Of a stretch of 64,000 nucleotides of DNA, positions 25,455 through 34,182 are shown piece after piece. The notes beneath the pieces were generated by a model that ran no database searches, was not told the DNA's origin, and saw only the letters and a program-made list of their open reading frames with translations. Origin of the DNA: Ruegeria sp. AD91A (GTDB lineage Bacteria > Pseudomonadota > Alphaproteobacteria > Rhodobacterales > Rhodobacteraceae); the NCBI RefSeq assembly GCF_003443535.1, contig NZ_CP031946.1:1116001-1180000 (forward strand), in the 5' to 3' direction. Position 1 is the first letter of the stretch. The number at the start of each line of letters is the position of its first letter. Position numbers and translations under genes: made by a program.

Positions 25455-26450
25455 TCAGGCATTAACATCAACCACGACGCGCCCCTTGACCTGTCCTTTC
25501 AGAATGTCGGCCCCCAGTTGCGGCAGATCGGACAGACTGGCCGGTTGAACCATCGCCTCCAGCTTGTCCATCGGCAGATCCGTGGCGATCCGTTTCCACG
25601 CACGCACCCTGTTGTCATAGGGCTGCATCACGCTGTCGATCCCCAAAAGGTTCACGCCGCGCAGCAGGAATGGAATCACCGTCGCAGGCAAAGCAGCCCC
25701 CCCTGCCAAACCAACGGCGGCAACGGAGCAACCGTATTTCATTTGGCCCAGAACACGCGCCAGCATGGCGCCGCCAACAGCGTCAATGCAGCCAGCCCAG
25801 GATTCGCTTTCCAGAGGGCGTTTGGTCGTCTCATTCAATTCTTCTCGCGGAACAATTGTCGTCGCGCCCAGGGATTTCAGATAATCACCGGTTTCGGGGC
25901 GCCCGGTTACCGCAGCGACCTCATAGCCCAGCTTGCCCAGAATGGCTGTGGCCACCGAACCGACGCCACCCGCGGCCCCGGTCACCAATACCGGCCCCCG
26001 ATCCGGGGTAAGCCCATGATCCTCCAGCGCCATGACCGCCAGCATCGCAGTGAACCCGGCGGTGCCTACGGCCATGGCCTGCCGCGTGGTCAGCCCTTCG
26101 GGCAGCGGCACCAGCCAGTCGGCCCGCGCGTTGGCTTTTTGCGAATAACCGCCCCAGTGAGCCTCGCCCACGCGCCATCCGGTCAGAACAACCTTGTCAC
26201 CGGGCTTGTAGCGATCATCCGATGAAACTTCGACCGTACCCGCGTAATCAATACCGGGGACATGTGGATAGGCCCGCACCAGCCCGCCCCCTTTCGGAGA
26301 CAGGCACAGGCCATCCTTGTAGTTCACTGTGGAATATTCAACGGCGACCGTGACTTCACCATGCGGCAGATCATCCACTGACAACTGTTTGAGCGAGCCG
26401 GTGGCAAGTCCGCTTTCTTCATCCTTGTCCATTACAAGAGCATTGAACAT
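25455..26450 (-). CDS. acuI: Acryloyl-CoA reductase (NADPH), AcuI/YhdH family
   Basis: A 331-residue zinc-free medium-chain reductase. AcuI reduces toxic acryloyl-CoA to propionyl-CoA during DMSP breakdown and is a known neighbour of dmdA in roseobacters. The family features are present: EYSTVNYKDGL near residue 40, VPGIDYAGTVE, VGTAGFTAMLAV and the NADPH-binding VLVTGAAGGVGSVA. There are no zinc-ligand cysteines. It lies 90 bases downstream of dmdA with a Roseobacter-type repeat in between, so it may be co-transcribed or have its own promoter. Confidence 0.92.
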   Translation of the reverse strand: MFNALVMDKDEESGLATGSLKQLSVDDLPHGEVTVAVEYSTVNYKDGLCLSPKGGGLVRAYPHVPGIDYAGTVEVSSDDRYKPGDKVVLTGWRVGEAHWGGYSQKANARADWLVPLPEGLTTRQAMAVGTAGFTAMLAVMALEDHGLTPDRGPVLVTGAAGGVGSVATAILGKLGYEVAAVTGRPETGDYLKSLGATTIVPREELNETTKRPLESESWAGCIDAVGGAMLARVLGQMKYGCSVAAVGLAGGAALPATVIPFLLRGVNLLGIDSVMQPYDNRVRAWKRIATDLPMDKLEAMVQPASLSDLPQLGADILKGQVKGRVVVDVNA

Positions 26451-26486
26451 CTGTCATTCCTTTCGTGTTTCAGCGACCAGCCCAAT

Positions 26487-26514
26487 TCTTCACCTGGCCA
26501 AAAATATCCCGAGG
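26487..26514 (-). repeat. Dispersed intergenic repeat (ATATTTTTGGCCAGRTGAAG type), copy 1
   Basis: On the minus strand this segment reads CGGGATATTTTTGGCC followed by AGGTGAAGAA. A near-identical segment occurs at 48702-48730. Both lie just after the stop codon of a minus-strand gene, in the same orientation with respect to it. I recall this motif as common between genes in Roseobacter-group genomes. Its role is unknown. Confidence 0.6.
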
Positions 26515-26540
26515 ACGACACAACAGCGCCCTTAACTGTG

Positions 26541-27644
26541 TTAGATCCAGAAATGCGATTGCACGGTTGCGCGACGCATCCCATCCGGTGTCTCCACGTC
26601 CAGTTCCGTTCCGGCATCCCAATGGCTCAGGCGCACCATACCGATCGCGACGTTGGTTTCAAAATCAGGAGACCAGGCCGCCGAAGTCACCTGCCCCACA
26701 CGCTTTCCGTCCGCAAACATACCCCAGGGACGATCGCAACCCGGCACCGGATCACCATCAATGGCGATAGGTCGGATTTGCTGTACTGGTCCCTCTTTGG
26801 CGACACGCAACAATGCGTCCCTGCCGATGCAGCCAATCGCGGTATGCGTGTTACAGAACTTCCCCAGACCGCATTCATGCGGTGTATTGTCATCGGTCAT
26901 GTCGTTCCCGTAAGACAACAAGCCGCCCTCTATACGCTCAATCAGGTTCGGACAGCCCGCGCGCACCTGCAGGTCTTCGCCTGCCGTAAATAACGCGTTC
27001 CACAAAGGCATGCCGATATCGCTGCCATCCACATAGATCTCGAACCCGCCCTGTTTCGAATAGCCGGATCGTGCGACGGCCAGATCCCGTCCTTCGAACT
27101 CGAACATATCAAATTTGAAAAACCGGATGTCCCGCACGCGATCGCCGAACACACGGGCCATCAGATCGTCCGCCTTGGGCCCCTGAACGGCAAGCGGCGA
27201 CACATCAGGTTCATCCACCAGCACATCCAGACGGTAGCCAACGGCGATACCCTTGACCCACAGCAACAGATCGCTGTCGGCAATCGATATCCACCAGCGG
27301 TCTTCAGACAGTTTCACCGCAACCGGGTCGTTCAGCATGCCGCCGGTTTCATCAACGATAGGCACGTAGAAACATTGCCCCGGCAACATACCGCGCAGAT
27401 CGCGCGGGGTCAGCATCTGCATCAGACGTGCAGCATCAGGGCCACGCAATTCGACCTGCCGCTCGCAAGACACATCCCAGACCTGCACATGGGTTTTCAG
27501 GTGCCGATAATCAGCTTCAACGCTTTCAAAAACCGTCGGCAACAACATACGGTTGTAGACCGTGTATCCCTTGACCCCGGCAGCTTCGACCCCTTCAGAG
27601 AACGGAGTGCGCCGCAAGCGGCGTGAGGCGGAAATCTGTGGCAT
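26541..27644 (-). CDS. dmdA: Dimethylsulfoniopropionate demethylase DmdA
   Basis: A 367-residue enzyme of the glycine-cleavage T-protein fold. DmdA moves a methyl group from DMSP to tetrahydrofolate, giving methylmercaptopropionate, the first step toward methanethiol. N-terminal SASRRLRRTPFSEGVEAAGVK and YNRMLLPTVF match DmdA rather than GcvT or aminomethyltransferases of other kinds. QVWDVSCERQVELRGPDA, SGYSKQGGFEIYV and NDMTDDNTPHECGLGKFC are the T-protein-fold blocks. The next gene upstream, dinB-like, ends directly before its ATG, and GAGGAGG gives strong initiation. acuI follows. Confidence 0.95.
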   Translation of the reverse strand: MPQISASRRLRRTPFSEGVEAAGVKGYTVYNRMLLPTVFESVEADYRHLKTHVQVWDVSCERQVELRGPDAARLMQMLTPRDLRGMLPGQCFYVPIVDETGGMLNDPVAVKLSEDRWWISIADSDLLLWVKGIAVGYRLDVLVDEPDVSPLAVQGPKADDLMARVFGDRVRDIRFFKFDMFEFEGRDLAVARSGYSKQGGFEIYVDGSDIGMPLWNALFTAGEDLQVRAGCPNLIERIEGGLLSYGNDMTDDNTPHECGLGKFCNTHTAIGCIGRDALLRVAKEGPVQQIRPIAIDGDPVPGCDRPWGMFADGKRVGQVTSAAWSPDFETNVAIGMVRLSHWDAGTELDVETPDGMRRATVQSHFWI

Positions 27645-28175
27645 TCATACCTCCTCGGGCATAAAGACGATATCACTGACAGGCGCTTCCGAGCCCGTCT
27701 CGGTCAGCATTTTATGCACTTGTCCCCTGTGGTGGGTCTGGTGATTGAAGAAATGGATCACACACAACGCGTAAGGCATTGTGACATCGGCTTCTTTCGC
27801 GGCAGAGTACCACGTGAACGATCCGGTCAGCGGATCATCCCCCAACCCTTTCGCCCATTTCTGGATACGGCCATCAATCTTCTCGCGTAACGCCAACCAG
27901 CTTTGCAGGTCCGGGCACAGGTATACACTTTCATGGATACCCCCGCCCGCATTGTGAATATTGCCGTCGGGCCCGTCGCGCTTTTCGAAACGAGACATCC
28001 ACATCCAATCGCCCCACAGCAAATGGTTTACCGTGCCCATGATCGAGCCAAAAAACGCCCCGCGTTCAAGGGTCAGTTCCTTGGGTGTCAGAGATTGCAA
28101 AAACTCTGACAACTGCTTGTTTTGCCAATGATTGTACCGCGCCATTTCCCGCGCATACGCGCCCGTGATCATCAT
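27645..28175 (-). CDS. DinB-family putative metal-dependent protein
   Basis: A 176-residue four-helix-bundle protein of the DinB/YfiT superfamily. The expected metal triad is visible: His51 (TVNHLLWGDWMW) with His141 or His145 and His149 in CVIHFFNHQTHHRGQ. Characterised relatives include thiol-dependent S-transferases (bacillithiol, mycothiol) and hydrolases, so chemistry with a thiol or a sulfonium is imaginable next to dmdA. No direct evidence fixes the substrate. Its stop directly abuts dmdA, and its ATG overlaps the DUF1326 stop, so the three are co-translated. Confidence 0.85.
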   Translation of the reverse strand: MMITGAYAREMARYNHWQNKQLSEFLQSLTPKELTLERGAFFGSIMGTVNHLLWGDWMWMSRFEKRDGPDGNIHNAGGGIHESVYLCPDLQSWLALREKIDGRIQKWAKGLGDDPLTGSFTWYSAAKEADVTMPYALCVIHFFNHQTHHRGQVHKMLTETGSEAPVSDIVFMPEEV

Positions 28176-28876
28176 TTGGGCCCATGCCAGTCGATGGGGC
28201 AGATTTCAGCGGACTTGCCGCCGAAATCCCAGACCCTGCCGTAGTCGCGCACCTTCGATTTGGTACCACGCGCCACGATGATGTCCGGTCCCATCCAGTA
28301 TTTGGAGTTTGAAACCATCACCGGATGCTCCGGATCCTTGCCCGCAAGCATCTCGATCTCGCCCTGGATTTTGCGACCAATCGCGATCCGGCGTTTGTTT
28401 CCGTCGCGCTCAATCTGGACCGGAGCTCGTTCCGCCCCAATGATCTCGCTGACCAGCATAGTAAACAGTCCGGTGGTACCGCCCGCCTGACCGCTGAAGA
28501 TTTGCAACAACCCGTTATATGCCTTGCCGCTTGCACGCTCATCAACGTAAGCGGCGACTTTCCACTGGCCTTCACCCATCCGGCCCGGAATATCGACCAG
28601 CAACCCGACATTCAGGCCCGACAGATCCTCGCCTTCATAGTGGCCTTCATCAACGATGATACCCATCCACGCATGACAATGACCTTCCGTCGGAGGATGC
28701 GCGCCCAGTGACACTACACAGGGGCAGAACACGTCACATGAACAGTTCAGGATCAGCTCGCCCTTGATGGCCCATTCCGTCGGGCTCATTTCACGCCGCT
28801 TGGGATTGGGCATGCGGCTGTCGATGCGCTGGCTGACAGGTAGCCGATCGGCGTCTTGTTTTCTGTTTTTAGCCAT
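28172..28876 (-). CDS. DUF1326 family cysteine-rich protein
   Basis: A 234-residue protein with GGAGG before the ATG at 28876, chosen over a start 18 codons upstream. The signature CSCDVFCPC is at residues 45-53, followed by GHCHAW (66-71) and a C-terminal EICPIDWHG. The four close cysteines plus His and Cys look like a metal site, though none has been shown for the family as far as I know. The first 35 residues are basic and not a signal peptide. It lies between the DUF2182 and DinB genes. DUF1326 and DUF2182 are a recurring gene pair of unknown role. Confidence 0.85.
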   Translation of the reverse strand: MAKNRKQDADRLPVSQRIDSRMPNPKRREMSPTEWAIKGELILNCSCDVFCPCVVSLGAHPPTEGHCHAWMGIIVDEGHYEGEDLSGLNVGLLVDIPGRMGEGQWKVAAYVDERASGKAYNGLLQIFSGQAGGTTGLFTMLVSEIIGAERAPVQIERDGNKRRIAIGRKIQGEIEMLAGKDPEHPVMVSNSKYWMGPDIIVARGTKSKVRDYGRVWDFGGKSAEICPIDWHGPK

Positions 28877-28880
28877 AGGC

Positions 28881-29690
28881 TTATCCTCCGTAGCTAATTG
28901 GGTACACGAGCAGAAAAAGACCGCCCGCAATTAATACAAATCCCATTGGACGGGTCACAGCGTGCCCGATCTGAGGGAGTTTCTCCAAAACCATGAACAG
29001 GGTTGCGAGCCCCATCCACAACAGGCTCATGACACCGCCGACAAAGCCAAGTGCCATGAAGCCCCAGCAACAGCCGACGCAAAAGGCACCAAGACCCAGG
29101 CCCATACGTAAACCGCCTGAAAAACCGGTTCTCCAATGCCCAAGGAAATAAGTCATCGGAGCATGGCAAACACCGTGGCAAACCTCTTTGACGCGGGAAA
29201 ACTGAAAGGCGCCCACGGCAATCATCAAGCCGCCCGCGACCCAGCCGGATTTGGCAATACCCAGCATATCGACAACGCCACCAAACAGCAGAAGCAGTTG
29301 TATTCCTGCGATAAGAGCCGCAAACCCGACCCAGACGACGGAATACCCGGCCAGAACCCCCAGCCAGCCTCCGCGGCTGCCATTTGCACTGCGGATCAGG
29401 TCCTCGTAACTGCGCAGGGTCGGAATCAGGGTCGGCAGCATCATCGCCGCCATCATGATCGCCCACATTGAAAACAGCGGGCCGAACTCGGCCATCGGCA
29501 TGTACATATCCATGCGCGGATCCATTGCGGCCATCGCCTGCCCCATCGGCCCCGGGCGACCGATCAGATCAAGGTCCATGTCCCGGCTCATCGAGAACAT
29601 GATCCACCACGCCAACAGGATCAGAACATAAAAGCCCAGCCACATTCCGCTGCGCAGCCACGTGCGACTCACTTCAGCCTCCCGACTCAA
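28881..29690 (-). CDS. DUF2182 family integral membrane protein
   Basis: A 269-residue protein with about six or seven membrane helices. Methionine-rich segments stand out (MSRDMDLD, MDPRMDMYMPMAE, SMWAIMMAAMMLP), followed by CHGVCH at 171-176 and CVGCC at 204-208. Met, Cys and His in and beside helices suggest handling of a soft metal such as copper. The family is described only as a predicted metal-binding membrane protein. It is the first gene of the minus-strand operon running to dmdA; the direct-repeat operator at 29705-29730 lies just upstream. Confidence 0.85.
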   Translation of the reverse strand: MSREAEVSRTWLRSGMWLGFYVLILLAWWIMFSMSRDMDLDLIGRPGPMGQAMAAMDPRMDMYMPMAEFGPLFSMWAIMMAAMMLPTLIPTLRSYEDLIRSANGSRGGWLGVLAGYSVVWVGFAALIAGIQLLLLFGGVVDMLGIAKSGWVAGGLMIAVGAFQFSRVKEVCHGVCHAPMTYFLGHWRTGFSGGLRMGLGLGAFCVGCCWGFMALGFVGGVMSLLWMGLATLFMVLEKLPQIGHAVTRPMGFVLIAGGLFLLVYPISYGG

Positions 29691-29704
29691 CTCCCTTGCT
29701 TTTC

Positions 29705-29730
29705 AAATGTCAGACTTTTAAATGTCAGAC
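29705..29730. promoter_or_regulatory. Tandem operator between DUF2182 and the GntR gene
   Basis: AAATGTCAGAC occurs at 29705-29715 and again at 29720-29730, a 15-base period. The core TGTC-A-GACA of the second copy is a perfect palindrome, and the first differs at its last base. Short palindromes of this kind are usual for FadR-type GntR regulators, and the regulator gene starts 31 bases away. The site lies between two divergent operons, so one regulator could control both. Confidence 0.55.
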
Positions 29731-29760
29731 AAATAAAAATTTACCCAAGGTCGTCTGAAG

Positions 29761-30492
29761 ATGAAAACCGCGCCCCGAAAAACCGCAGACCTGTCTGCCC
29801 AGATCGCCCAGGCCATTCGGGATGCGATCGTGTCGGGTGAGCTGATCGTGGACGCGCGCTTGCCATCCGAAGCGGAACTGTCGGATCAGTTCCAGGTCTC
29901 TCGCCCGACTGTGCGTGAAGCATTGAAACGGCTGGCAGCGCAATCCCTGATCCGCACACAACGCGGCGCTTCCGGCGGCGCGTTTGTAAATCGCCTGAGC
30001 TTTGAGGACGCCTATTCTCAGCAAGTCACGACTTCGACATTGTTGCTGTCGATGAATGCGGTCAGCTTCGATACGGCTTGCGAGGCGCGATATGCCCTGG
30101 AAAGAGCCTGTGCGCCTTTGTCCGCGCAGCGACGCACTGCAGATCACCTGGCGACTATGCGGGCGGAGATATTCCGACAGTCCCAACCCGGCCTGACGGA
30201 TGAAGCCTTTTGCGCATCAGACGTGACTTTACATCGCGCGTTGGTGGATGGGGCTGGAAACCCGGTCCTGTCCTATCAACTGGCAGGTGCTGTGGAAGCG
30301 ATGCAACCGCTGATGAACATGATCACTTTCACTGCGCGATCCCGCGAGGAAATTATCCGCCTGCATGTTAAAATAGTGGACGCGCTTGAGACAAAAGATG
30401 CAGATACCGTGGACTCCGCACTGATTGATCTGGAACGTTACACACGACGACTGGCCCATGATGTGGCCAAGAGCAAACGTAAACCGACTTGA
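29761..30492 (+). CDS. GntR/FadR-family transcriptional regulator
   Basis: A 243-residue regulator with an N-terminal winged helix-turn-helix (residues 8-75; LPSEAELSDQFQVSRPTVREALKRLAAQ) and a C-terminal FCD ligand domain. The FCD metal-site residues are suggested by ARYALERACAPL, DVTLHRALVDGAGNPVL and the C-terminal REEIIRLHVKIVDAL. FCD proteins bind small carboxylic acids, and DMSP, its demethylation product or acrylate are possible ligands. It diverges from the DUF2182-DUF1326-dinB-dmdA operon and precedes the methanethiol oxidase homologue in the same direction. Confidence 0.88.
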   Translation: MKTAPRKTADLSAQIAQAIRDAIVSGELIVDARLPSEAELSDQFQVSRPTVREALKRLAAQSLIRTQRGASGGAFVNRLSFEDAYSQQVTTSTLLLSMNAVSFDTACEARYALERACAPLSAQRRTADHLATMRAEIFRQSQPGLTDEAFCASDVTLHRALVDGAGNPVLSYQLAGAVEAMQPLMNMITFTARSREEIIRLHVKIVDALETKDADTVDSALIDLERYTRRLAHDVAKSKRKPT

Positions 30493-30609
30493 GGGCTGAA
30501 TTCTAAACAAAATCAGAACAAGGGGCACACGAGCAGGCAGATTGTCATCCGGCGCCAAGACCGGAACTCTCAATGTGAATTGAAGATCAATGACTTACGG
30601 GAGGACGTT

Positions 30610-32010
30610 ATGAATCAAAGACCGGACCCTAGCTTTTATCCATCCGCAAAACTGGCGATGGAGGGCCCCGCTGAGACACTTGCATTCACGCTGATGCTCA
30701 GCCCTGACTTTTCACAACCAGACGGACTGGCGGTTGTGAATGTTGATCCAAGCTCGGACGATTTCGGAAAGATCGTGCATCAGGTGATCATGCCCGAGAA
30801 AGGCGACGAGTTTCACCATTTCGGTTGGAACGCCTGTTCTTCGGCCCTGTCGCCGCTCAGCGGTCACGCGTTTCTGGAGCGGCGCTATTTGATCATCCCT
30901 GGCATTCGGTCCAGCCGAATTTATGTCATCGATGTCAAAAACCCGCTCGAGGCCAAGATACACAAGATCATCGAACCCGAAGAAGTCTTTGCAAAGACTG
31001 GGTATTCCCGTCCGCACACGATCCATTGCGGGCCTGAGGGCATCTATGTCAGCACCCTTGGTGGTGGCGGCCCCGACGGGACAGATGGCCCTCCGGGCAT
31101 TTTCATCATGGACTGCGAGACCTTCGATATAATCGGGCGCTATGAAATCGAGCGCGGCGTGCAGGACAAGCATTATGATTTCTGGTGGAACCTGCCGCGT
31201 GACTACATGGTCAGTTCCGAATGGGGCCTGCCACCGCAATTCGAAAACGGACTCGTGGCCGAAGACCTGTTGTCCAATAAATACGGCCATAGCATCCATT
31301 TTTGGAACCTTCGAAACCGGACGAACATTCAAACCATCGATCTGGGTGAAAACCATCAGATGGCCTTGGAAATCCGCCCCGCTCATGATCCCGTAAAACA
31401 ATACGGGTTCTGCGGCGTTGTCGTCGATACAACAAACCTGCAAGGTGCGATCTTCACCTGGTGGCGCAATGATGACGGCACGTTCGAAGCCAAGAAAACC
31501 ATAACAATCGATCCGCAACCCGCTGATCCCGATGATCTTCCTGACCTTCTGAAGGGCTTCTCTGCTGTTCCGCCGCTGGTCACTGATATCGACCTGAGTC
31601 TGGATGACAAGTACCTCTATGTCGCTTGCTGGGGAACCGGCGAGATGCATCAATACGATGTATCCGACCCGATGAATCCAACTCTGGCAGGCAAGGTCGA
31701 GATCGGTGGAATCGTCAAAAAGACAAAGCACCCAAATGGTCAAACCTTTGGCTATGGTCCACAGATGGTCGAAATCAGCCGCGACGGCAAACGGGTCTAC
31801 TGGACCAATTCTCTCTATTCCACGTGGGACGACCAGTTCTACCCCGAGGAAGGCGGTGCGGCCATGGTCAAGGCTGATGTCGGCGAGAATGGTGGTCTGA
31901 CACTGGATCCGAAATTCTGGGTGGAGTTTCCCAAGGGTTATCGCAGCCACCAGATCCGGTTAGAGGGCGGAGACTGTTCAACCGACAGCTTCTGCTATCC
32001 GTCGGTCTGA
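30610..32010 (+). CDS. mtoX: Selenium-binding protein SBP56 homologue, probable methanethiol oxidase
   Basis: A 466-residue beta-propeller protein of the SBP56 family; the bacterial type MtoX is a copper-dependent enzyme that turns methanethiol to formaldehyde, H2S and H2O2. ATG at 30610 has GGGAGG behind it. Histidine clusters that could hold copper are seen: His69-His70 (DEFHHFGWNAC), His136 and His139 (RPHTIHC) and a C-terminal SHQIRLEGGDC. No signal peptide is present, whereas exported MtoX enzymes carry one. The SCO1 and MauG-like genes that accompany mtoX in Hyphomicrobium are absent here. Placement beside dmdA suggests it removes methanethiol formed from DMSP. Confidence 0.85.
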   Translation: MNQRPDPSFYPSAKLAMEGPAETLAFTLMLSPDFSQPDGLAVVNVDPSSDDFGKIVHQVIMPEKGDEFHHFGWNACSSALSPLSGHAFLERRYLIIPGIRSSRIYVIDVKNPLEAKIHKIIEPEEVFAKTGYSRPHTIHCGPEGIYVSTLGGGGPDGTDGPPGIFIMDCETFDIIGRYEIERGVQDKHYDFWWNLPRDYMVSSEWGLPPQFENGLVAEDLLSNKYGHSIHFWNLRNRTNIQTIDLGENHQMALEIRPAHDPVKQYGFCGVVVDTTNLQGAIFTWWRNDDGTFEAKKTITIDPQPADPDDLPDLLKGFSAVPPLVTDIDLSLDDKYLYVACWGTGEMHQYDVSDPMNPTLAGKVEIGGIVKKTKHPNGQTFGYGPQMVEISRDGKRVYWTNSLYSTWDDQFYPEEGGAAMVKADVGENGGLTLDPKFWVEFPKGYRSHQIRLEGGDCSTDSFCYPSV

Positions 32011-32023
32011 ATTGGACTTTCTG

Positions 32024-32677
32024 ATGTCATCAACGGCTGGCCTGTGGCTGGCCGTTGTTCTGAGCGGCGCCTATCACGGTCTGAACCCCGGCATGGGCTG
32101 GCCGCTGGCGGTGTCTTCGGCTTTGATGGAGCAACGCCAATCCGCCCTGTGGAGCGCACTCGCGGCTTTGGCTGGCGGGCATTTCGTGGCCATGCTCGGC
32201 GTGCTTCTGCCTTTTGCCCTGATGGCCGTACTGGTCAACTATCAAAATGAAATCCGCATCGGCGCGGCCCTGGTCGTCATAGGCATGGGACTGTACATCG
32301 CCATAACCCGCCGTCATCCCCGCTTTCTTTCACGTGTTCCGCCAAGCAAGCTCGCGCTGTGGTCTTTTCTGGTGGCGCTTGCCCACGGAGCCGCCCTGAT
32401 GCTGGTTCCAATCTATCTGGGCCTTTGCGCCGTGGATGAATTGGACGCGGGACATCAAGCGATTTCCCAGATCATGACGACAAATACGCTTTTGGTTCTG
32501 GGTGTCGCCGCGCTGCATACGGCCGCCATGGTTCTGGGCGGGGGGGTGTTGGCCTTTGCGGTCTATCATTGGCTTGGTCTGCAATTTTTGTCGCGCAGCT
32601 GGTTCAACCTGGAACTGATTTGGGCGCTGAGCCTCATTCTGGTCGGTGGTCTGGGTCTTTGGTCCGCACTTGGCTGA
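32024..32677 (+). CDS. Polytopic membrane protein with HGLNPGMGW motif
   Basis: A 217-residue protein with about six membrane helices. Two histidine motifs sit in helices in symmetrical positions: YHGLNPGMGWPLA at residue 18 and AHGAALMLVPIYLG in the second half. The layout recalls nickel/cobalt (NicO, RcnA) and other metal permeases, but no firm family assignment is possible. TTG at 32012 is an alternative start; neither has a strong ribosome-binding site, so translation may depend on mtoX, whose stop is 13 bases upstream. Confidence 0.7.
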   Translation: MSSTAGLWLAVVLSGAYHGLNPGMGWPLAVSSALMEQRQSALWSALAALAGGHFVAMLGVLLPFALMAVLVNYQNEIRIGAALVVIGMGLYIAITRRHPRFLSRVPPSKLALWSFLVALAHGAALMLVPIYLGLCAVDELDAGHQAISQIMTTNTLLVLGVAALHTAAMVLGGGVLAFAVYHWLGLQFLSRSWFNLELIWALSLILVGGLGLWSALG

Positions 32678-32736
32678 CCTTGTACTTTGTTTTGAAACGC
32701 GCTTTGTCTGCATCAAAACAAAACTGGAGCTTCCGA

Positions 32737-33387
32737 ATGCAGGACCAAACCCGCCCAACCGAAGTGCTGCGTCAGGGCAAAATCGACCAGTGGCAGGCCG
32801 CGACAACCCATGCCTTCACCTGCGAACTGTCTGACGGCACCCTGCCCGAGGATAAAATGCGCTGGTACCTGCGGCAGGATTATCAGTTCGTCGACGGTTT
32901 CGTGCGTCTTTTGGCCAGCGCCATCGCGCATGCACCGACCCTTGCAGACAGCGTACCGGCCGCGCAGTTTCTGGCGGTGATCACAGGCCCCGAGAACACC
33001 TATTTTCTGCGCGCGATGGACGCTTTGGGCACTGAACCCAGCACCGACCCCGCGCCGGCCACACGGGCGTTTCAGGATCTGATGACCGAAGCCGTGGCCT
33101 CTGGCCGCTATCAGAACATGCTGGCGGTACTCGTCGTAGCAGAATGGGTTTACCTGAGCTGGGCCAGCCCGGAAAACCCACCCAAAGACGGCTTGCCATT
33201 CTGGTTTGCGGAATGGATCACGCTACATGCGGGCGAAGGGTTCGAAAGCGTGGTGGAATATCTGCGGCGTCAGTTGGATAACGTCTGGCCAACGCTGGAT
33301 GCGGATGAACAGGCCGAGGTTACACGGCTGTTTCATCGAGCCGTCGAGTTGGAACGTGATTTCTTTGACGCCGCTTACGCGGCCTGA
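32737..33387 (+). CDS. TenA_E-like (thiaminase II/THI-4 fold) protein
   Basis: A 216-residue all-helical TenA/THI-4-family protein. Family landmarks include a conserved aromatic pocket (MRWYLRQDYQFVDGFVRLLA) and a C-terminal LFHRAVELERDFFDAAY with the catalytic-type glutamate. The catalytic cysteine of thiaminase II is replaced; the segment reads VVAEWVYLSWA, as in the TenA_E branch, whose members salvage thiamin breakdown products such as aminopyrimidines. No thiamin genes are nearby, so the substrate may differ. It lies 59 bases after the membrane gene and 15 before the DUF4345-like gene. Confidence 0.8.
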   Translation: MQDQTRPTEVLRQGKIDQWQAATTHAFTCELSDGTLPEDKMRWYLRQDYQFVDGFVRLLASAIAHAPTLADSVPAAQFLAVITGPENTYFLRAMDALGTEPSTDPAPATRAFQDLMTEAVASGRYQNMLAVLVVAEWVYLSWASPENPPKDGLPFWFAEWITLHAGEGFESVVEYLRRQLDNVWPTLDADEQAEVTRLFHRAVELERDFFDAAYAA

Positions 33388-33402
33388 ACCAAGGAGGCCG
33401 CT

Positions 33403-33765
33403 ATGGTCGCTACTCTGAACGTCATTGCGGCATTGCTGACCATCGGGTTCGGCGCATTCGGGTTTTTGGCCCCGGCCCATACCGCGTCGGCCCTGGATCT
33501 GGCCCCGACCAACAGCACAATGGGGTTGTCCGAGATGCGCGCCTCGGTCGGTGGTTTATTTGTTGTGACCGGGATCGCCGTTATCTGGCTGAACAACCCA
33601 ATGGCCTATTTCATGCTGGGCATTGTCTATTCCGGTGCTGCACTGGGCCGGTTTGTATCGGTCGCGCTGGACAATCCACCCTTTGCCAAGGCGTTGATCT
33701 TTGGGGGAATCGAACTGGCTCTGGCGGTTTGGCTTATCTCCGCAAACTTCAACAAAGCCACCTAA
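33403..33765 (+). CDS. DUF4345-like small membrane protein
   Basis: A 120-residue protein of four hydrophobic helices with short turns and few charged residues. AAGGAGG lies nine bases before the ATG. The pattern of a small four-helix protein with MRASVGGLFVVTGIAVIW in helix two resembles DUF4345 proteins, which have no known function. It is the last gene of the mtoX unit before the tmRNA. Confidence 0.65.
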   Translation: MVATLNVIAALLTIGFGAFGFLAPAHTASALDLAPTNSTMGLSEMRASVGGLFVVTGIAVIWLNNPMAYFMLGIVYSGAALGRFVSVALDNPPFAKALIFGGIELALAVWLISANFNKAT

Positions 33766-33837
33766 CAGATTGGAAATATGGGATGCGATAGACTTCATTC
33801 TGAGTTTGCATCCATCCATCACCTCACCTATATAAGA

Positions 33838-34182
33838 GGTGTCCTTCGGGACTATGGACATAAACGCGCTCGTAATAAGCGGATCGGACCCGGGGGCGGT
33901 ACCCGGCGGCTCCACCATACACCTTCTGGGGGCATCCTTCGTTTGGGGATCACTTTCGGAACCGGGGGGCCGAAATAGGATCGACGAACGTCTAAAGGGG
34001 TTAGCTTTGTCCCGGCTGTCTGCCACCGTTACCGGCGAAAACAGTACAATTGCAAACGACAATCGTGCTCCGGTTGCAGTTGCTGCGTAAGCAGTAGCAA
34101 GACCGAAACTTAAGCCCTTGCGCCTAGCCGCGTAAGGCGGGGTTCGCAGGTACCTGGCAACAGAAACCTGCATTAATCCCCT
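33838..34182 (+). ncRNA. ssrA: Two-piece (circularly permuted) tmRNA
   Basis: The gene has the permuted alphaproteobacterial layout. The acceptor piece comes first and ends with a T-arm (CCGGG-GGCGGTA-CCCGG, about 33889-33905) and the acceptor strand CGGCTCC-A-CCA (33907-33917). After an excised linker, the coding piece starts at about 33966 with GGGGCCG, which pairs with CGGCTCC, and continues GAAATAGGATCGACG. The tag frame at 34052-34090 encodes ANDNRAPVAVAA and a TAA stop. Pseudoknot-type sequence follows. The outer ends are approximate. The tag's hydrophobic end fits ClpXP recognition; the adaptor SspB is encoded 2.8 kb downstream. Confidence 0.95.

Follow-up and report, generated by a model that had tools for sequence, protein, structure and literature searches.

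Methanethiol is a main sulfur product of the demethylation of dimethylsulfoniopropionate (DMSP), a pathway for which dmdA, the gene of a folate-dependent demethylase, is often used as the marker. In roseobacters dmdA is followed by acuI, and induction by acrylate and DMSP has been reported (Todd et al., 2012, PMC3338564; here and below, statements on PMC3338564, PMC5739008, PMC7157515, PMC10362175 and PMC10936201 refer to the parts of these papers accessible to us). MtoX is a copper-dependent methanethiol oxidase that is raised by DMSP in Ruegeria pomeroyi (Eyice et al., 2018, PMC5739008). Ruegeria lacuscaerulensis has no mtoX yet converts methanethiol to sulfide, for which genes of the SBP family were suggested and the enzyme left open (PMC7157515, 2020). 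A methanethiol oxidase of this species, RlMTO, was purified and shown to consume methanethiol, to give more sulfane sulfur than H2S and to need C76, C140 and C456, the bacterial enzymes of its cluster 1 being reported to yield sulfane sulfur for the most part, without H2O2 (Cao et al., 2024, PMC10936201). In human SELENBP1, the residues H73, H74, H137, H140, D189 and E252 are each needed for activity (PMC10362175). Here we describe a locus within 64,000 nucleotides of Ruegeria sp. AD91A (assembly GCF_003443535.1, contig NZ_CP031946.1, positions 1,116,001 to 1,180,000 of the forward strand; this whole stretch is called the window), in which dmdA and acuI lie close to a gene of the SBP56 family. 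We consider it likely, with a probability of roughly three in four, that two units have been brought together here under one control, namely the dmdA operon with its GntR regulator and a methanethiol oxidase pair made up of SBP56 and a membrane protein, TM221. The genes concerned are given below by window position and strand.

25455..26450, minus strand: acuI, acrylyl-CoA reductase (TIGR02823, 447 bits, cut-off 297)
26541..27644, minus strand: dmdA, DMSP demethylase (NF009133, 697 bits, cut-off 410)
27645..28175, minus strand: DinB-fold protein, member of the dmdA operon (PF05163, 82 bits)
28172..28930, minus strand: DUF1326 protein, member of the dmdA operon, start uncertain (PF07040, 179 bits)
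28881..29690, minus strand: DUF2182/PpoB2 putative copper chaperone, first gene of the dmdA operon (PF09948, 199 bits)
29761..30492, plus strand: GntR-FCD regulator, divergent to the dmdA operon (PF00392 and PF07729, above cut-off)
30610..32010, plus strand: SBP56, probable cluster 1 methanethiol oxidase (PF05694, 577 bits, cut-off 34)
32012..32677, plus strand: TM221, a 221-residue membrane protein, partner of SBP56 (follows SBP56; without a family)

The dmdA-SBP56 link looks real. A DmdA match is present in each of the 54 Ruegeria genomes (E ≤ 1e-60, in 12 of them at only about 61-73% identity), and in 22 of the 54 a window-type SBP56 lies no more than 10 kb away. These linked copies score 93-107 bits with the MtoX model vs. 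108-126 bits for the 19 unlinked window-type copies, a split chosen after the scores had been seen and without which 22 out of 41 copies are linked; the 13 second-clade SBP56 copies in Ruegeria are unlinked too. A divergent DmdA (61-66% identity) sits at the linked place in seven of the 22 genomes (G199, G203, G216, G223, G226, G228 and G239; G and L numbers denote genomes and loci of our samples), from which it seems that the link persisted when dmdA was replaced, as if in situ.

Loci were also fetched for a family set (40 window-type SBP56, another with 55% identity, 18 from a second clade at about 42%, and one canonical MtoX), for 80 named SBP56 loci, which are the best 80 of 582 relatives and so the nearest to the window SBP56, and for 60 dmdA loci, gene content in the latter two sets being determined by tblastn; co-occurrence was scored in 198 genomes of the family from 197 genera. 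Eighteen of the 80 named loci are dmdA-linked, in two gene orders, and comprise Ruegeria and near relatives, three Tateyamaria, a metagenome-assembled genome (L141) and two one-strand loci. The one-strand order, DUF2182-DUF1326-dmdA-acuI-SBP56-TM221, is that of Pacificoceanicola onchidii and Primorskyibacter sedentarius. In the family set dmdA lies within 10 kb of SBP56 in three loci (G000, G043 and G066), the last with the order dmdA-SBP56-TM221. The linked label requires 4-6 changes on bootstrap trees of SBP56 and a single change suffices in none of 200; for these trees 9 very-long-branch or outgroup rows and 17 near-copies were excluded, and the bootstrap is not fully settled. A single origin of the linkage was tested with the approximately unbiased (AU) test, in which the linked copies as one clade are narrowly rejected (p 0.044).

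The window SBP56 is probably a cytosolic, copper-dependent cluster 1 methanethiol oxidase. Its frame is open from a TTG at 30580, with the ATG at 30610, preceded by a GGGAGGA ribosome site and giving 466 residues, the likelier start, and the PF05694 match covers the full length (residues 15-472). The three cysteine motifs of cluster 1 are present, at C86, C150 and C466 counted from the TTG, which are C76, C140 and C456 from the ATG, with the same spacing as that given for RlMTO. The dmdA-linked SBP56 of R. lacuscaerulensis, the one SBP56 found in that genome, likewise has 466 residues from its ATG with cysteines exactly at 76, 140 and 456, and from these positions we infer that it is RlMTO; methanethiol oxidase activity of the window protein would then be expected from its orthologue. 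The residues equivalent to those of SELENBP1 are H79, H80, H146, H149, D200 and E264 (TTG numbering), placed by way of published motifs and spacing rather than by alignment with the human sequence, and all six are kept in 112 of 112 window-type proteins (one of them, L102, at 55%) and in 18 of 18 second-clade proteins, the single canonical MtoX in the alignment differing at one of these columns. No hydrophobic N-terminal stretch was found in the first 60 residues (best 19-residue mean 0.76), which speaks against a signal peptide. A reading made earlier from the letters alone (the sequence-only reading) had called the protein an SBP56/MtoX homologue, of which the SBP56 part stands, together with probable methanethiol consumption. 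A strict MtoX identity is ruled out by the model score and the gene context, as the canonical model NF052453 gives 101 bits against a cut-off of 650 (a protein of G075 passes with 725 bits) and neither SCO1/SenC nor MauG is among the families matched by the ten window genes, TM221 being without a family.

TM221 accompanies this type of SBP56 throughout. All 80 named loci have it after SBP56 in the same orientation, with a median gap of about 12 bases, and in the family set it is present in 41 of 41 window-type loci (the one at 55% included), in 0 of 18 second-clade loci and not beside the canonical MtoX (one locus). The protein has about six hydrophobic segments and no family match, and H22, H57, H102, H125 and H169 are invariant in 40 sequences. 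One fold prediction (predicted local distance difference test score 79) gave no clear relative on comparison, HupE/UreJ and CcdA-like proteins having been considered. Perhaps TM221 delivers metal to the copper enzyme or exports its product, both of which are guesses.

We can then outline how the two units might work together. DmdA would demethylate DMSP, after which DmdB, DmdC and a hydratase encoded elsewhere would free methanethiol, SBP56 would oxidize it to formaldehyde and sulfane sulfur, and AcuI would clear the acryloyl-CoA of the lyase route. With SBP56-TM221 placed behind gntR, or in other genera behind acuI or dmdA, the production and the removal of toxic methanethiol could be jointly controlled. 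The sequence-only reading had placed dmdB and dmdC outside the locus, and candidates for both are indeed found elsewhere on the chromosome. The dmdB candidate (G000:C1:906344) gives 1105 bits to PDB 6ihk and 797 bits with the ligase model NF005426 (cut-off 822), and the dmdC candidate (about C1:1.746 Mb) gives 1075 bits to PDB 6ijc; we take these two structures to be DmdB and DmdC, which are listed as AMP-binding and acyl-CoA dehydrogenase proteins. At C1:2551691 there is a match to a cupin DMSP lyase, which makes acryloyl-CoA from cleavage a fair expectation.

The older of the two units would be DUF2182-DUF1326-DinB-dmdA-acuI with its divergent GntR regulator, to which SBP56-TM221 would have been added. 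The arrangement GntR|DUF2182-DUF1326-(DinB)-dmdA-acuI is a widespread dmdA operon. The 60 dmdA loci were drawn from 83 genomes with a DmdA match of at least 417 bits, a draw that left out G000, G043, G066 and a further 20, almost all of them lower in identity, and none of the 60 shows SBP56. DUF1326 and DUF2182 are always found together, in 51 of these loci, along with AcuI in 50, GntR in 45, DinB in 32, ChrA in 21 and DUF4345 in 18. Since these genes recur around dmdA where SBP56 is absent, the left arm of the window locus and much of its right flank (DUF4345) belong with dmdA. TenA is found in 3 of the 60 loci and in 6 of the 80 named SBP56 loci, all six from Ruegeria. The flank genes and their neighbor are as follows.

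about 32737..33387, plus strand: TenA-family protein, lineage-specific flank gene (PF03070, 86 bits)
33403..33765, plus strand: DUF4345 protein, flank gene of dmdA loci (PF14248, 42 bits)
33802-34174, plus strand: two-piece alphaproteobacterial tmRNA gene, just right of DUF4345 (RF01849, 293 bits)

Open frames and family matches bear out all ten genes that the sequence-only reading had placed in the locus. In addition to the model scores listed, the dmdA product gives 371 bits to PDB 3tfh, the AcuI equivalog model NF051456 reaches 425 bits, narrowly under its cut-off of 440, and acuI lies directly 3' of dmdA on the same strand, with 90 bases separating the frames. The picture of a single GntR gene between dmdA and SBP56 needs amending, for the GntR gene is there but three further genes also lie between them. 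The proposal that the ten genes form one self-contained DMSP module is not supported either: five genes and GntR recur where SBP56 is missing, the SBP56-TM221 pair is an addition, and TenA and DUF4345 are flank genes. The comparison of gene order around dmdA that was called for does show the SBP56 link to recur, in several genera and orders, and together with the cysteine match in R. lacuscaerulensis this upholds the idea of a probable methanethiol-consuming enzyme joined to dmdA-acuI. Conserved companions of dmdA in its operon are DUF2182, which is a putative copper chaperone, DUF1326 and, in many loci, a DinB-fold protein (27645-29690 in the window; L202-L261); a literature search gave nothing joining DUF2182 with DUF1326, the dmdA gene cluster with DinB, or DUF1326 with dimethylsulfoniopropionate. 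DUF1326 is not special to dmdA, being found in 106 of the 198 genomes, with three copies in the window genome.

The control region consists of the following two features.

29708..29731, no strand assigned: predicted GntR operator in the divergent promoter (GTCAGAC at 29709, palindrome TGTCAGACA at 29723)
30540..30609, plus strand: leader ahead of SBP56, approximate limits (conserved in linked Ruegeria loci)

GntR probably binds the TGTCNGACA sites of the shared dmdA/GntR promoter, and regulation is what we infer from their distribution. We identified the operator, and counted it, on promoters of the dmdA type, with the SBP56 promoters forming a separate set, and identical upstream regions were counted once. 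TGTCNGACA occurs in 37 of 42 dmdA/GntR promoters of loci without SBP56, where the next palindrome occurs in 3, and in 16 of the 18 dmdA-linked SBP56 loci. Ahead of unlinked window-type SBP56 it occurs in 14 of 90 promoters (next palindrome 7, mean 0.5), and it ranks first among 256 palindromes in each of the two promoter sets. With a matrix built from 29 dmdA-promoter sites, the 99th percentile of 706 background promoters is exceeded by 19 of 90 promoters of window-type SBP56 and by 4 of 19 promoters of other SBP56 genes; among unlinked loci of the family set this threshold is passed in 6 of 45 from genomes with dmdA and in 0 of 11 from genomes without. A 15-base form of the operator has 19 sites in the 3.84 Mb of loci fetched around SBP56 and dmdA (a count that is not genome-wide and covers some close relatives, with one genome present twice, as L069 and L150, and four closely related Roseobacter loci), 13 of them next to SBP56 and the other 6 in dmdA/GntR promoters. 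Two genomes, G126 and G070, carry this form at both promoters (loci L069/L240 and L079/L208), and a CAATTGTCNGACATT site lies ahead of SBP56 in an unlinked roseobacter. The leader contains short inverted repeats. A riboswitch ahead of SBP56 was considered and set aside, as no Rfam match there exceeds the cut-off of any family.

These distributions raise a more far-reaching reading, in which a GntR repressor with the operator TGTCNGACA would govern one DMSP-demethylation regulon of roseobacters that takes in both the dmdA operon and SBP56-TM221, joined either by a linkage assembled several times or in trans through this operator, with TM221 as an obligate partner and DUF2182, DUF1326 and DinB as parts of demethylation, none of these roles having been recognized before. 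We put this forward tentatively, at somewhat less than even odds.

Across the 198 genomes, dmdA is present in 35 of the 45 with window-type SBP56 vs. 48 of the 153 without (p 4e-8), and in 48 of the 63 with either SBP56 clade vs. 35 of the 135 without. Of the 83 genomes with dmdA, 34 have no SBP56 of any kind. Independent pairs on a BamA tree (BamA was obtained from 194 of the 198 genomes, and the tree used 90 of these) change in the same way 4.3 times and against it 0.5 times (5.6 vs. 0.7 for either clade). The expected co-variation of mtoX with dmdA is seen in part: cluster 1-type SBP56 co-varies with dmdA, weakly once corrected for the tree, while canonical mtoX does not, being present in 3 of the 198 genomes, of which one has dmdA.

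A number of observations weigh against the union of the two units under one control. The tree-corrected co-occurrence has the right direction but is weak (median p 0.22, or 0.125 for either clade), 10 of the 45 genomes with window-type SBP56 have no dmdA, and dmdA is not in the vicinity of 62 of the 80 named SBP56-TM221 pairs. If only well-supported branches are counted, no more than 2 changes of the linked label are forced, and the AU value is only just below 0.05. RlMTO is matched to the linked copy by its cysteine positions, and PMC7157515 counts two SBP-family genes in R. lacuscaerulensis vs. the one found here; a second, more distant gene may have escaped the search. On the side of the operator, TGTCNGACA was found neither in L134 and L144, which are same-strand loci, nor ahead of dmdA in L073, and most unlinked SBP56 promoters are without it. 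Two of the 14 core sites ahead of unlinked SBP56 are in Mesorhizobium with other flanks, and 4 of the 14 loci contain a distant homologue of GntR, so another GntR may read some sites. No TGTCNGACA stands directly ahead of SBP56 in the Ruegeria loci, where control would need read-through from the gntR promoter.

Among the alternatives, SBP56 could be a general thiol oxidase that receives its methanethiol mostly from methionine or from sulfide methylation, with DMSP as one source. The ten dmdA-free genomes just mentioned all carry the SBP56-TM221 pair, Mesorhizobium and Marinobacter have SBP56-TM221 loci with no dmdA nearby, and human SELENBP1 accepts several alkyl thiols (PMC10362175), all of which would be expected of such an enzyme. 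The raw co-occurrence with dmdA and the repeated linkage argue the other way, and we regard this explanation as rather unlikely, though it is compatible with a joint dmdA and SBP56-TM221 locus.

It is also conceivable that the neighborhood arose by chance, SBP56-TM221 having landed by dmdA once or a few times and been inherited there without any functional link. Most pairs do lie elsewhere, the linked copies of Ruegeria type (13 in the tree) fall into a single clade, so that the 22 genomes may represent one event, and the tree-corrected co-occurrence is not significant. What makes chance improbable to us is that SBP56-TM221 occupies three different positions relative to dmdA, that a single origin is rejected, if narrowly, that random placement would give at least two linked genera among 34 with a probability of about 0.01, and that the operator is shared in unlinked genomes.

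The idea that DUF2182 and DUF1326 explain the cluster as copper-maturation factors of SBP56, prompted by the naming of PF09948 as a copper chaperone and by the copper requirement of characterized SBP56 proteins (PMC10362175), was lowered to very improbable, as both follow dmdA: 51 of 60 dmdA loci have both with SBP56 not nearby, neither is seen in the flanks, fetched to at most 10 kb, of 62 of the 80 named SBP56-TM221 loci, and DUF1326 tracks dmdA (71 of 83 genomes with it vs. 35 of 115 without).

Several related loci were seen along the way. L096, from a genome with no dmdA match (G003), has the same kind of neighborhood, with AcuI, DinB and an acyl-CoA dehydrogenase facing GntR and SBP56-TM221. 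A DmdA-like protein of about 40% identity is found near SBP56 of either clade in several genomes of the family, within 10 kb in seven loci (G006, G161, G113, G032, G036, G123 and G079), and the two such proteins scored reach 381-382 bits, under the cut-off of 410. In L084, L088, L108 and L109 it stands with an enoyl-CoA hydratase and an acyl-CoA synthetase by SBP56, accompanied in L084, L088 and L108 by OsmC and an AsnC regulator, which suggests a second (thioether demethylation) route ending in a thiol. The second-clade operon (L108, L109, L116 and L119) combines SBP56 with a 2Fe-2S ferredoxin, a CoA-binding protein and a rhodanese, the last of which would fit a sulfane-sulfur product, and an IclR-family homologue is near this operon in L108, L109 and L119.

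The linkage of dmdA with acuI and the activity of cluster 1 methanethiol oxidases are already published. For the dmdA-SBP56 link, TM221 and the operator we found no description in the literature searched, where supplements were out of reach and could hold an earlier notice. The terms dmdA, operon, gene cluster and genomic context do not appear in the main text of PMC10936201, the accessible text of PMC7157515 has no mention of operon, adjacent or gene cluster, and one paper found for dmdA, GntR and acuI names a GntR, in its accessible passages, for ectoine uptake only. Canonical mtoX exceeds its cut-off in 1 of the 54 Ruegeria genomes, all of which have a DmdA match, so surveys of mtoX alone would miss much of the methanethiol sink. 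The linkage singles out one gene, one partner and one operator for methanethiol removal.

Compared with the systems known so far, the window shares with the operon of Todd et al. (2012, PMC3338564) the order dmdA then acuI, and it differs in also having DUF2182-DUF1326-DinB and a divergent GntR; the word GntR is absent from the accessible text of that paper. The MtoX of Hyphomicrobium and of R. pomeroyi (SPOA0269) belongs to the same Pfam family, SBP56 (Eyice et al., 2018, PMC5739008), but represents a distinct clade that is predicted to be periplasmic and is found with SCO1/SenC, MauG and IclR genes. Human SELENBP1 (PMC10362175) is a thiol oxidase that shares its six activity residues with the window protein, and its products are reported to be H2S and H2O2, unlike those of the bacterial cluster 1 enzymes. 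The closest likeness is to the cluster 1 methanethiol oxidases of Rhodobacteraceae, RdMTO and RlMTO (PMC10936201), which have the same three cysteine motifs as the window SBP56, and to what that paper describes in its accessible parts the present locus adds the membrane partner and the linkage to dmdA.

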